Source: Oceanicaulis sp. HTCC2633
GTDB lineage: Bacteria > Pseudomonadota > Alphaproteobacteria > Caulobacterales > Maricaulaceae
NCBI RefSeq assembly: GCF_000152745.1
Contig: NZ_CH672428.1
Span: forward strand, 554,916 to 618,915
DNA: 64,000 nucleotides
Direction: 5' to 3'
Position 1 is the first letter of the stretch; the number at the start of each line of letters is the position of its first letter. Both the position numbers and the translations under genes were made by a program. Below the pieces are notes generated by a model, which ran no database searches, was not told the DNA's origin, and worked only from the letters and a program-made list of their open reading frames with translations. Shown piece after piece: positions 12,147 through 17,933 of this stretch.

Positions 12147-15100
12147 TTAGAGCGTTTCCACCTCGAGAACACCCGCCACAGCCTTCACCGCAGCGCGGGC
12201 GGCGGGATCAACGGCATGACGCCCGGGCAGTCGGAGCTCTGCAAGCCGACCATCCGACAGCGGGACAATAAGGTGGATCGACCCCTTCACCGCGCCCTGC
12301 CGGTCATTCGCCCGATCAATTCTCTTGCGCAGGGGCTCTAGCGCGGCGGGCTCTCCGACCCGGATCTTGAGCCCCTGCCCGATATGCTCGGCCGCAAACG
12401 GATCAATCGTATCCGCCCCATCAATGATGAGGCGCAACCCTTCATCCTGAGCCTCGATCTTGGCGTTGACCAGAACGGACGCGCCCGGTTCGATAACGTC
12501 GCGAATCTCGCGCAAGACCTTGGGGGGGACCAGCGCCTCGAACTCGCCGGACGGGTCAGAGAGCGTGACGAAGGCGAATTTCTCGCCCGAGCGTTGGGAG
12601 ACCTTCTCCTGCCGTCGCCGCACGACAGCGGCCAGACGGGCTGCGCGCGCGCCCTCCGCCGCCTTGGACGGCAGATCGGCGAACACCACCACGCCGCGAC
12701 GGCCCAGAGCGGGCATCATGTCATCGAGCGGGTGGCCGGACAGGTAATAGCCGATCGCCGCCAGCTCTTCATCAAGACGACGGACAGGATCCCAGGGCTC
12801 GGGCTCGGGCAGGTTGGGCCGCTCCAGCTTGGTTCCGCCGCCCTCACCGCCACCGCCAAAGAGCGAGGCTTGGGCGCTGTCGCGCTCGGACTGGGCGTTC
12901 TGGGACACCGAGAGCAGAATCTCCGCCGAGGCCAGCGCCTTGGCGCGATCCGGCTCCAGCGTATCGAAGGCGCCTGCACGCGCCAGATTTTCAAAGGCGC
13001 GTTTGTTGACCTGACGCGGATCGACCCGCTCGGCGAAGTCGAAGACGTCCCTGAAGGGACCGCCCGCCTTCCGGACGTCGGCCACATGCTCCATCGCCGA
13101 ATAGCCCACATTGCGGATGGCGCCGAGCGCATAGCGGATCTTGCCATCTTCGAGCGAGAAATCCGCTTCGGACGCATTCACATCCGGGGGGAGCACCTCC
13201 AGCCCGATCCGCTTGGCCTCCTGAAAGAAGACCGCGAGCTTTTCGGTGTTCGCGCTATCCAGACTCATCAGGCCCGCCATGAAGGCGGCGGGATGGTTGG
13301 CCTTCAGCCAGCCCGTCTGATAGGCGATGAGGGCGTAGGCGGCGGCGTGCGACTTGTTGAAGCCGTAGCCCGCGAACTCGGCCACAAGGTCGAAGATGTA
13401 ATTCGCCTTCTCGCGCGAGACGCCGCGCTTTTCCGCCCCTTCATTGAAGCGCACGCGCTGCTGGTCCATCTCCTCCTTCTTCTTCTTACCCATGGCGCGG
13501 CGAAGAAGGTCGGCCTCCCCAAGCGAGTAGCCGGACAGGATCTGGGCGATCTGCATCACCTGTTCCTGATAGATGATGACCCCGTAGGTCTCCTTCAGGA
13601 CGGGTTCGAGATCCGGATGCAGGTAGTCGGGCTCGGCACGGCCGAATTTCCGGTCCACATACACGTCGATATTCTTCATCGGCCCCGGCCGATAAAGCGA
13701 GATCAGCGCGATGATGTCCTCAATGCTGTCAGGCTTGAGCTTGCGCAGCGTGTCGCGCATGCCCGTACTTTCAAGCTGGAACACGCCGATGGACGCGCCC
13801 ACGCCCAGAAGCTCGTAGGTCGCGGGGTCGGTGAGGCTGATCGCGTCCATATCGGGGCGGTCAAGACCCGCGCTCTCGATATAGCTCAGGGCGCGCGAGA
13901 TCACGGTGAGGGTTTTCAGCCCCAGAAAGTCGAACTTCACGAGCCCGGCCGGCTCCACCCATTTCATGTTGAACTGGGTGGCCGGCAGGTCCGAACGCGG
14001 ATCCTGATAGAGCGGAACGAGTTCGGTCAGCGGACGGTCGCCGATCACCACGCCGGCGGCATGGGTCGACGCGTTCCGGAACAGCCCCTCCAGCTGCAGC
14101 GCCACATTGATGAGACGATCCACCATCTCGTCATTGCGCTGCATTTCCTGAAGCTTGGGTTCGGTCTTCACCGCTTCGGCCAGCGTGATGGGCTGGGCGG
14201 GATTGTTCGGCACCTGCTTGGCGATCCGGTCCACCAGACCAAAGGGCAATTGCAGCACCCGCCCCACATCACGCACCACGGCGCGCGCCTGCAGGGTGCC
14301 GAAGGTGATGATCTGGGCCACCCGGTCCTGACCGTAGCGCTCCTGAACATAGCGGATGACCTCGCCGCGACGGTCCTGACAGAAGTCGACGTCGAAGTCG
14401 GGCATCGACACCCGTTCTGGGTTCAGGAAGCGTTCGAACAGCAGGCCGAAGCGCAGAGGATCCAGGTTCGTGATGGTCAGCGCCCAGGCGACCAGTGAAC
14501 CTGCGCCTGAGCCCCGTCCCGGCCCGACCGGGATGTCATGGGCCTTCGCCCACTGGATGAAGTCGGACACGATCAGGAAGTAGCCCGGGAACCCCATCCG
14601 CTCGATAATCCCGAGCTCGTAATCAAGACGCTCGAAATAGGCCTCGCGGGTATCGGCGAGCTCGATCTTGGACAGACGGTCTTCCAGCCCGGCAATAGAG
14701 CGGGCGCGCAATTCTTCTGCTTCGTTGCGATCCCCTTCGGTTGGAAAGCTCGGAAGAATGGGTTTGGAGGTCCGGGGACGGAAGGCGCAGCGCTGCGCGA
14801 TCTCGACCGTGTTGGCGATGGCCTCAGGCAGATCGGCGAACCGGTCCGCCATGGCGGCGCCGGATTTGAAATCATGCTCGGCCGTCAGCTTGCGCCGATC
14901 CTCCATGCTGACATAAGCGCCTTCGGAGATGCACAGCAGCGCATCATGGGCCTGATAGAGCTCGGACCGGGGAAAATGCGGCTCATTGGTCGCCACGAGC
15001 GGCAGATCCAGCGCATAGGCGCGATCCACAAGCCAGTCCTCGGCCGTGACGTCATCGGCGCGGCCATGACGTTGAAGCTCGAGATAAAGCCGATCCGGGA

Positions 15101-15599
15101 AGCGCGCCCGCAGCCGGTCGAGAAGCTCCTGCGCGGGTCCTGTGCGACCGGCGCAGACAAAACGGTTCAGCACGCCGTCAAACCCGCCCGTCAGACAGAT
15201 CAGTCCGTCGCTGTGCTCGAGCACCCTGTCGATCGGAACATGAGGCTCATCGGTCGCGGCGACGTCCAGATAAGCGGCCGAGGACAGCTTCATCAGATTG
15301 GCGTAGCCCAGCTCTGATTGCGCCAGAAGCACCAGCGTGCCGTCAGGACGCGAGCGTTCGCCCGGACGCGGCTCCTCCACCTGGATAGAGAGCGTAACTC
15401 CGATAATGGGCTGCACGCCCTCACCGGAAAGAACCTCAGAGAATTCGAGCGCGCCGAACAGATTGTTGCTGTCGGTCAGCGCCGCGGCGGGCATGGAGAA
15501 GGTTTTGCACAGCGCCGCCGTCTCCTTGATGCGGATCGCCCCCTCCAGAAGCGAGTACGGCGATCGGACACGCAGATGGACAAAGGGGGCATCGCTCAC
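12147..15599 (-). CDS. dnaE: DnaE, DNA polymerase III alpha subunit
   Basis: An 1150-residue replicative C-family polymerase. The N-terminal PHP domain (about 1-280) opens [13 protein letters not shown]. The palm has [15 protein letters not shown] and the catalytic [16 protein letters not shown] near residues 395-415. The fingers contain GVFQLES and the [13 protein letters not shown] segment, and an OB fold and C-terminal domain follow (about 900-1150). The start is GTG with GGAG upstream; a stop blocks any upstream in-frame start. In the PHP domain the usual metal-binding His after LRV is Arg, so PHP nuclease activity is unlikely. It lies 61 bp downstream of the sidA-like peptide gene. Confidence 0.95.
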
Positions 15600-15655
15600 G
15601 GCAGGCGCTCCAGATCAGGCGGAATCAGGTCCTCAGTGTAGACCCCGCCTTGCAT
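15596..15655 (-). CDS. Possible 19-codon ORF coupled to dnaE
   Basis: An ATG lies five bases after the sidA-like stop and opens a short frame ([19 protein letters not shown]) whose TGA overlaps the dnaE GTG as GTGA. There is no clear ribosome-binding site of its own. It could pass ribosomes from the upstream gene to dnaE by translational coupling, or it could be chance. No family is recognised. Confidence 0.25.
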
Positions 15656-15660
15656 AAAGG

Positions 15661-15753
15661 TCAGCCCGCGAGTGCCGCTGAGAGGCTGAGCGCGACAGCG
15701 ATAAAGCCGACGATGACAGCGGCGGAGGTCATATCTTCGATCAGGTTACGCAT
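15661..15753 (-). CDS. sidA: SidA-like SOS-induced small membrane peptide
   Basis: A 30-residue peptide: a short charged N-terminus (MRNLIEDMTS), then a single hydrophobic span of about 20 residues rich in Ala, Val, Ile and Leu, ending at Gly. An AAGGAG lies seven bases before the ATG. Upstream is a sigma-70-like promoter with three sites resembling the LexA box GTTC-N7-GTTC. In Caulobacter crescentus, SidA is a 29-residue inner-membrane peptide repressed by LexA that blocks division through the FtsW/FtsN divisome; from memory its gene lies next to dnaE. Size, topology, operator and the dnaE neighbour all agree. The function here is inferred, not shown by sequence identity. Confidence 0.72.
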   Translation of the reverse strand: MRNLIEDMTSAAVIVGFIAVALSLSAALAG

Positions 15754-15789
15754 GGGACAACTCCTTGATCAGCTGCATCTAACGCAGCT

Positions 15790-15804
15790 ATTCCTGTTTT
15801 GTTC
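15790..15804 (-). promoter_or_regulatory. Imperfect LexA box at the sidA-like start site
   Basis: Reads ATTC-N7-GTTC on the plus strand, one mismatch from GTTC-N7-GTTC. It covers the inferred transcription start of the small peptide gene and lies 25 bp from the next imperfect box, in the same orientation. Binding here would block the polymerase. Confidence 0.5.
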
Positions 15805-15810
15805 CATTGC

Positions 15811-15839
15811 ATGTTTTCTGCTTTTGTTCCGCGCGTCAA
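15811..15839 (-). promoter_or_regulatory. Candidate promoter of sidA-like gene (and dnaE)
   Basis: On the minus strand TTGACG is followed after 17 bases by AAACAT. The inferred start is about 50 bases before the peptide ATG. An imperfect LexA box fills the spacer and another covers the start site, the arrangement of a directly repressed SOS promoter. No terminator is seen between the peptide gene and dnaE, so dnaE may share it. Confidence 0.6.
15815..15829 (-). promoter_or_regulatory. Imperfect LexA box in promoter spacer
   Basis: Reads TTTC-N7-GTTC on the plus strand, one mismatch from the alphaproteobacterial consensus. It lies between the -35 and -10 elements and overlaps the edge of the -10. 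Confidence 0.5.
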
Positions 15840-15885
15840 GCAGATTTTGATTCGGCTCGGAAAGCTGCGGAAAAACCGCCACTTG

Positions 15886-15900
15886 GAACATTTGAAGAAC
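15886..15900 (-). promoter_or_regulatory. Perfect LexA box (GTTC-N7-GTTC)
   Basis: On the minus strand GTTC TTCAAAT GTTC, an exact match to the alphaproteobacterial SOS box. It lies between the lolD stop and the promoter of the sidA-like gene, about 46 bp upstream of the -35. Being downstream of lolD, it most plausibly acts on the peptide gene. Confidence 0.7.
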
Positions 15901-15916
15901 GAAGTTTGAGCCCAGC

Positions 15917-16606
15917 TCAGGCGTCCGCCCACGCCACCACGCGCCCCTGATCCAGGGTCACGACCCGGTCCATGCGTCCGGCGAGTTCATGATTGTGCGT
16001 CGCGATCAGGGCCGCCGCCCCGGCTTCCCGGCACGCCCGGGCCAGCGCTTCAAACACCTGATCGGATGTGGCCGGATCAAGATTGCCCGTGGGTTCGTCG
16101 GCCAGCAGGATGCGCGGTTCATTCACCAGGGCCCGTGCTATCGCGACACGCTGCTGCTCCCCGCCCGACAATTGTCCCGGACGGTGATGAAGTCGTCCAG
16201 CCAGACCCAGCGCGGCGAGCTGGAGCTCAGCCGCATCCCGCGCCGCCTTCTGACTGGCGCCCGCAATCATGCGCGGCAGCGCCACGTTATCAAGCGCATC
16301 AAGTTCGGGCAGCAAGTGGTGGAATTGATAGACAAAACCCACTTCCCGACGACGCAGTGCGGTGCGTTCACGCTCCGACAAGGCCAGTCCATTCTGGCCG
16401 CCAATCCAGACTTCGCCCGCATTCGGCGCCTCAAGAAGCGCCGCGGCATGAAGCAGCGAGGACTTGCCTGAGCCGGACGGCCCGACCAGGCCGACGAGCT
16501 CGCCGGCATTGAGGTCGAGATCCGCGTCGGTCAGAACCTCCAAACGCTCGCCCTCGGTTTCATAGATGCGGGTGATCCCGCGCAGGGACAGCGCCGGCTT
16601 ACTCAT
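15917..16606 (-). CDS. lolD: LolD, lipoprotein-releasing ABC transporter ATPase
   Basis: A 229-residue ABC ATPase with Walker [12 protein letters not shown]-loop in [16 protein letters not shown], signature [15 protein letters not shown], Walker [13 protein letters not shown] and the switch His in ATHNHEL. With the adjoining permease it extracts lipoproteins from the inner membrane and passes them to LolA. The reading frame overlaps the permease gene by eight bases, and the FHHLLPE..NV segment favours LolD over other MacB-type ATPases. Confidence 0.9.
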
Positions 16607-17933
16607 AACGCAGCGCCTCCACGGGGTCGATGCGGCCCGCGCGCCAGCTTGGCGCCAGGGTTGCGATCAGCGAGGTGAAGAAGCCCCAGAAGGACACGAA
16701 GGCCACCTCGCCCCAATCAAGCCGCGCCGGCAGGCGGTAAAGCGAATAGACACTGGGATCGAAGACATTCACACCGCTGACCCAGCTGACGAAATCCTGC
16801 AGGGGACCAATACCGATGACGGCGAGCAGGCCGAGCGCAATCCCGGCCAGCGTGCCCAGCACGCCCACGGCGGCGCCCGCAATCAGGAAGATCCGCATGA
16901 CCGCGCCCTGGCTGGCCCCCATTGTGCGCAGGATGGCGATATCCTTGGTCTTGTTCTTCACCAGCATCACAAGGCCTGAAATGATGTTCATCGCCGCGAT
17001 CAGGACGATGGCGGACAGGATCAGACGCATGGCGACGCGTTCCACCTGCAGCGCATTCCAGAAAGCCTGGTTCTGTCGCCGCCAGTCAAAGATGACGGCG
17101 CCCTGCGGCGCCATGGCCCGGATCTGTTCCATGACCGGTTCGGGCGCATCGGGATTGGCGATGCGCACATCGATATATTCACCCTGTGCGGGCTTATTGA
17201 AGAACAGGGACGCCTGATCCAGCGGCATGTAGATGAGGACCTGGTCCAGATCCTGAACGCCGACGCTCAACAGTCCGCCAATGGTGTAGCGCTTGGAGCG
17301 CGGCGTCATGCCGAGCGCCGTCGTGGCGCCCTGAGGCGAGACCAGCGTCACCTGATCGCCGACCCCGACGCCGAGCTGATTGGCCATCACCGTCCCCATG
17401 ATGATGACGTCGCCGCCATTGCGGCCTTCGCCGAACCGATCAATCGAGCCGGCCGCCAGACCGCCGCCCGCATCATCCGCACCGTGCGCGCCCGTAATCA
17501 GATCAAATCGAGCGAGGTCCTCGGGGCGAACACCTGACACAGAGGCGAACGCCGCCGAGCGGCCCGAAGTGACAAGCGCCTGCCCGGTCGCCACGGGTCC
17601 GGCCTGGCGCACGCCATCCAGCGCGCGGATCCGGTCCGCCAACGTCCGCGACAGCTCGCCCTGGTCCGCAGGAACCATGACGTAGACATGCGGCTGAACG
17701 CCCAGCAGCCGGGTCAGCAATTCGTGCCGGAAGCCGTTCATCACGCTCATCACCGTGATCAGAACCGCCACCGCCAGCATGATCCCCACAAAGGAGATCA
17801 CCGAGATCAAGGTCACGCCGCCATGCTTGCGCCGGGCCCGCAGATACTTGAACGCCAACAGGAATTCATAGCGGGAGAACGGCGCCGCGCCCGATTGCGG
17901 GGCGGCTTCGGTCGCGGCGGCGTCTGAACTCAC
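16599..17933 (-). CDS. lolC: LolC/LolE family lipoprotein-releasing permease
   Basis: A 444-residue MacB-superfamily permease: one N-terminal span (about 40-65), a large periplasmic domain (about 65-300), then three C-terminal spans within about 310-430. It opens [38 protein letters not shown], the Lol permease signature including the Lys/Arg-rich N-terminal box. Alphaproteobacteria commonly have one such permease acting as a homodimer with LolD rather than LolC plus LolE, and only one is seen here. The start is GTG, overlapping the proS stop as GTGA. Confidence 0.9.

Follow-up and report, generated by a model that had tools for sequence, protein, structure and literature searches.

SidA of Caulobacter crescentus (CCNA_02004; PMC11034885) is a 29-amino-acid inner-membrane inhibitor that acts on FtsW and, according to PMC4211646, is lethal via the divisome when overproduced. 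In the same paper, mutations at FtsW F145 and A246 suppress both SidA and a second inhibitor, DidA, while A31K is a strong suppressor for SidA and not for DidA; models that are not of high confidence (2026) place SidA on TM7 of FtsW (PMC13396833). DidA is likewise a damage-induced, small, single-span division inhibitor of C. crescentus (PMC4211646). Unlike the product of the gene described below, whose boxes are LexA-type, it has 71 residues, is SOS-independent (DriD) and binds FtsN. YneA of Bacillus, SosA of Staphylococcus and ChiZ of Mycobacterium are also damage-induced membrane inhibitors of division; all three are thought to act late in the process, YneA via FtsW (PMC13396833). They occur in other phyla, a LysM domain is present in YneA and ChiZ, and the likeness is meant as functional, with no homology claimed. 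TisB and DinQ are SOS-induced single-span peptides. In the literature consulted for comparison, the SidA checkpoint appears in Caulobacter only, and at the level of titles and the starts of abstracts no SidA is announced outside Caulobacter; a search combining sidA, dnaE, Caulobacter and LexA returned no match.

An earlier note on 64,000 nucleotides of the Oceanicaulis sp. HTCC2633 genome (hereafter the window) had proposed a SidA-like, LexA-controlled micropeptide gene upstream of dnaE. We followed this proposal through the genus, the order and the class. The kind of gene is already known; what surprises is the breadth of the sidA-like family and its fixed tie to dnaE.

The open reading frame and its promoter

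The sidA-like ORF (15661..15753, minus strand) starts with ATG and encodes 30 amino acids, MRNLIEDMTSAAVIVGFIAVALSLSAALAG, followed by a stop codon. A Shine-Dalgarno sequence, AAGGAG, lies 7 bases 5' of the start (15761..15766, minus strand); both elements stand where the earlier note had put them. Hydropathy peaks at 2.52 in a 17-residue window; one membrane span is predicted, and the size agrees with the ~29 residues of SidA. Downstream on the same strand, after a gap of 61 bases, comes dnaE (12147..15599, minus strand), encoding the replicative DNA polymerase III alpha subunit (NCBIfam NF004226, above cut-off). Upstream lies an ABC ATPase gene (15917..16606, minus strand) that is lolD-like, its top NCBIfam match being LolD at 243 bits, below the cut-off of 307.75; all three genes are thus read from the minus strand, in the order lolD-like gene, sidA-like ORF, dnaE. 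A scan of 15500-16000 found no terminator-like site on that strand. Pfam gave no matches for three peptides of the sidA-like family and NCBIfam none above cut-off, the single match reaching 14.9 bits where the cut-off is 200. Since both databases are silent on the three members tested, the family is probably missed by automatic annotation.

The earlier note had staked its proposal on the ORF and its boxes being conserved in related genomes, and both were found to be. The peptide is present in 14 of the 15 genus genomes at 60-100% identity (alignment A1), and near boxes accompany it at all 14 loci; the only exception is G004 (1.7 Mb), where neither ORF nor box is found at dnaE. The 14 coding sequences are under purifying selection, with a pooled pN/pS of 0.38 over 91 pairs, and dN/dS between the source-genome ORF and each genus relative ranges from 0 to 0.36. 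On this conservation and pattern of substitution, the ORF is a real coding gene.

Two LexA-type boxes lie close to the ORF, in the promoter region. Box 1, GAACAAAAGCAGAAA (15815..15829, minus strand), covers the spacer and -10 element, and box 2, GAACAAAACAGGAAT (15790..15804, minus strand), lies over the expected transcription start; a perfect GTTCN7GTTC site, GTTCTTCAAATGTTC, is found at 15886..15900 (minus strand). These three positions are as the earlier note gave them, and a further one-mismatch site occurs at 15897-15911. The likely -35 element, TTGACG (15834..15839, minus strand), is invariant in the 14 genus loci. The likely -10 element, AAACAT (15811..15816, minus strand), was placed 17 bases past TTGACG from the sequence and alignment; it is a poor match as the second hexamer of TTGACG-N17-AAACAT, a promoter read by eye, and a sigma-70 consensus scan of 15500-16000 returned no promoter-like sites.

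Conservation differs between the boxes. Every one of the 14 genus loci retains boxes 1 and 2, always 25 bp apart; the 14 promoters share a box 1 consensus, GAACAAAAnnnGAA, that runs into the -10 element, and box 2 reads GAACAAAACAGGAAT in 12 of them and carries an extra mismatch in G010. The perfect box is retained in the source genome, G014 and G007 only, and in G010 a perfect site of opposite orientation lies at the same distance. The proposal of a LexA-type promoter is therefore borne out by the sequence, but with a change of emphasis: the core, conserved operators are the two imperfect boxes, as putative LexA sites, and the perfect box, kept in 3/14 loci, was rejected as main operator and is an accessory at most.

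The earlier note had described the boxes by the GTTCN7GTTC pattern, two of them with one mismatch. With up to one mismatch, the pattern has 46 matches in the window against 45.1 expected from 100 shuffles; taken alone, the loose pattern is at chance level and uninformative. The stricter form common to both near boxes, GGAACAWAANNNGAA, behaves differently: its two sites in the window are both at the sidA-like promoter, with none in 100 shuffles, and two of its six sites in the whole genome (3.17 Mb; none in a reversed control) are again those at this promoter. The loose count is what would be expected of a chance ORF lying next to chance box matches. Against that reading stand the conservation of peptide and boxes and the share of strict genome sites at this one promoter, which leave it a negligible probability, and a chance ORF was rejected on purifying selection and conservation.

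Directly after box 2, the leader contains a hairpin, AGCTGC-GTTAGAT-GCAGCT (15771..15789, minus strand). A stem of at least four Watson-Crick pairs occurs in 13 of the 14 genus loci, against a mean of 2.3 and a maximum of 7 of 14 loci in shuffles. Because these 13 loci hold seven different stem sequences, it seems that pairing rather than the letters is conserved. RNAalifold predicted no pairs on a MAFFT alignment of the genus leaders.

Distribution in the order and the link to Caulobacter SidA

Of the 398 genomes in the order, dnaE was placed in 385, and we read 100 dnaE upstream gaps outside the genus: 30 in the Caulobacter-like family f3, 20 in f1 (the family of the source organism), 20 in f2, 16 in f5 and 14 in f4. 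An ORF of about 25-31 residues with one span precedes dnaE at every locus read in f3 (30/30), in f1 outside the genus (20/20) and in f5 (16/16), at 3/14 loci in f4 and at none of the 20 in f2 (L146-L165), giving members in four of the five families sampled. Comparison of the same locus in other Caulobacterales genomes, which the earlier note had proposed, upholds its claim of an extension beyond Caulobacter and reveals a distribution wider than it had supposed. Some positives (L108, L124, L138, L142, L145 and L180) were added after the first filters, by profile, alignment or reading; L145 and L180 encode 25 residues each and score weakly on the profile (E 0.59 and 0.028, respectively). A GAACN7GAA box lies within 110 bp of the ORF in nearly all positives of the order; it is absent within this distance at L105 and L143, and lies further up at L142.

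All 37 genomes searched for lexA contained it, whether or not they had the sidA-like gene, and loss of LexA was rejected on this ground as the cause of gene absence. This includes all 10 f2 genomes checked, despite the f2 loci read being without such an ORF before dnaE. Another SOS division inhibitor, or a relocated sidA, is to be expected in f2.

A scan of named genomes, of which the best 80 of 98 matches were kept, returned the Caulobacter vibrioides strains DSM 9893, T5M6 and OR37, along with C. segnis, Phenylobacterium, Brevundimonas and others. Among these best 80, the dnaE start lies at most 450 bases downstream in 79 and a box within 110 bp in 75; two of the named loci, L241 and L229, end at contig ends. 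In the named C. vibrioides genomes, the equivalent position before dnaE encodes a single-span peptide of 29 residues and carries the same boxes. Published locus tags give a second line of evidence. C. crescentus dnaE is CC1926 and recN is CC1983 (PMC1839093), and recN is also CCNA_02062 (PMC12700426); the tag offset of 79 places dnaE near CCNA_02005, next to sidA. Together, length and tags make it a strong inference that the Caulobacter 29-residue ORF before dnaE is SidA. Given this 29-residue version before dnaE in C. vibrioides, and the fitting SidA length and tag, the source-genome ORF is most likely a SidA orthologue.

The pairwise similarity behind this assignment is weak. Identity between the source peptide and the f3 members of alignment A3, which stand in for SidA, is 10-28%, and the source peptide lacks the FVWMMC stretch of the Caulobacter-like peptides. 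An hhalign comparison of the two sub-alignments gave a probability of 27.6% and an E-value of 0.00065, and a genus-centred profile had no Caulobacter-like peptide among the matches listed. Family f3 peptides of 29 residues nonetheless align to the source peptide without internal gaps, GF on GF, and the family alignment, which also has no internal gap, contains sequences intermediate between the two. The link to SidA is drawn from place, promoter, size, register and these intermediate sequences taken together. In this combined form the SidA-like identity proposed by the earlier note stands: the source peptide resembles SidA in length (30 versus 29 residues), in having one span, in its LexA-type boxes and in the place before dnaE observed in the named C. 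vibrioides genomes.

The same set of features bears on two other readings. An SOS-type promoter, a length of about 30 residues and one membrane span would also suit a TisB- or DinQ-like toxin that depolarises the membrane. Unlike those peptides, the gene has a fixed place before dnaE and the link to SidA. An Rfam search of 15000-16700, taken to E 1, was empty, so that no known antitoxin or antisense RNA is present there, although an undescribed one may be; we consider such a toxin very improbable. A leader peptide, the translation of which would tune expression of downstream dnaE after damage and leave the divisome untouched, would account for the constant place before dnaE wherever the gene was found by reading synteny, and for the hairpin in the genus leader. 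Selection, however, acts on the amino-acid sequence over the whole length, the gap between stop codon and dnaE is anywhere from 33 to 259 bases long across 73 loci, and the Caulobacter member is most likely SidA, whose lethality through the divisome was noted above (PMC4211646). This makes a leader peptide very improbable.

FtsW as candidate target and the proposed mechanism

The source genome encodes two FtsW/RodA-type proteins. For the comparison we used the one with a Caulobacter-like counterpart that carries the three published residues, A31, F145 and A246, in their published positions. All 10 aligned proteins retain F145 and A246. A31 is not conserved, a further difference from the SidA system, and is replaced by isoleucine in G000. 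This residue pattern neither proves nor excludes that the source peptide would have the same target.

We regard as likely the explanation in which the ORF is a sidA orthologue that is repressed by LexA, released by damage and stalls FtsW, FtsI and FtsN. LexA bound to the two direct-repeat boxes, 25 bp apart and covering the -10 element and start site, would block the promoter, which RecA-driven cleavage of LexA after DNA damage would free. The resulting transcript would probably run on into dnaE. The 30-residue peptide would enter the inner membrane and keep FtsW/FtsI/FtsN in an inactive state, so that division would wait for repair. Sequence supports the promoter step; it also shows the gene and its conservation, the architecture of the boxes, the fixed place before dnaE and the presence of lexA, recA and FtsW-type genes. 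LexA binding, damage induction, transcription into dnaE, membrane insertion, the FtsW target and division arrest are inferred by analogy with Caulobacter SidA.

A family with conserved promoters that holds one fixed place in most of the order, and leaves traces through the class, would turn the SidA brake into a general checkpoint that is testable in many species, with dozens of natural SidA variants available for mapping the FtsW contact. It would also suggest that a single damage switch governs both the arrest of division and the supply of replicative polymerase.

Occurrence beyond the order and further LexA-type sites

We ran a profile of 56 members from the order against 289 class genomes. 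Its matches before dnaE fell in three f8 genomes and one f141 genome; at the f141 locus, a GAACN7GAAC box is absent. We also read the region upstream of dnaE at 70 loci, drawn from the 139 class genomes in which dnaE was matched: the 30 best-scoring and 40 that were picked by hand. The count retains L278 (the source copy, which a perfect-box rule does not count), L297, which is probably mis-framed, and L328, with just 227 bases. Under a rule that asks for a perfect GAACN7GAAC box and, 20-90 bp further on, a short single-span ORF, 13 of the 70 loci were positive, with ORFs of 29-47 residues in 10 families, and the other 57 were negative. The same rule gave no positives in 40 rounds of dinucleotide shuffles and none on the opposite strand.

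Scored with a profile built from the order alone, 9 of the 14 outer peptides beat all 200 of their own shuffles, or 6 of 11 when L293, L269 and L270 are excluded, which come from genomes first found with this same profile. L288 was reached by two and L313 by one of the 200 shuffles, and L289, L311 and L298 were not distinguishable from theirs on this profile. We lean towards the view that SidA is an ancient module of the Alphaproteobacteria, a membrane micropeptide under LexA control and linked to dnaE, rather than a Caulobacter invention; one SOS promoter would then both halt the divisome and feed the replicative polymerase. We give this view lower weight because three of the tested peptides were found with the profile used to test them. 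It would imply repeated loss or relocation, in f2, most of f4, G004 and most of the class loci read, and some outer members could be of independent origin.

LexA-type sites were also surveyed through the genome. GAACN7GAAC occurs at 79 sites, against 63 in a reversed control, and we inspected the surroundings of 18 of these, chosen for A/T-rich spacers or for their place. Such sites, similar to the boxes of the sidA-like promoter, precede lexA, recA, a dinB-type polymerase gene and an mmcB gene, and one lies between ssb, identified by eye, and uvrA. The recA site, GGAACGCAACAGGAAC, is similar to box 2. At L072 (G000:C1:1129121), the site GAACAGATTGAGAAC lies ~160 bp upstream of an ORF that looks by eye like mraZ and opens a probable division gene cluster; this site may be a chance one. 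At L079 (G000:C1:2828131), a strict LexA-type site, GGAACAAAATAAGAAC, stands ahead of a frame that stays open for 187 codons or more; this frame had no match in Pfam or NCBIfam and is a possible uncharacterised SOS gene. Further strict sites are found at L078 (G000:C1:2177997), L074 (1781791) and L369 (389382), those at L078 and L074 adjoining small ORFs that resemble DNA-binding proteins by eye.
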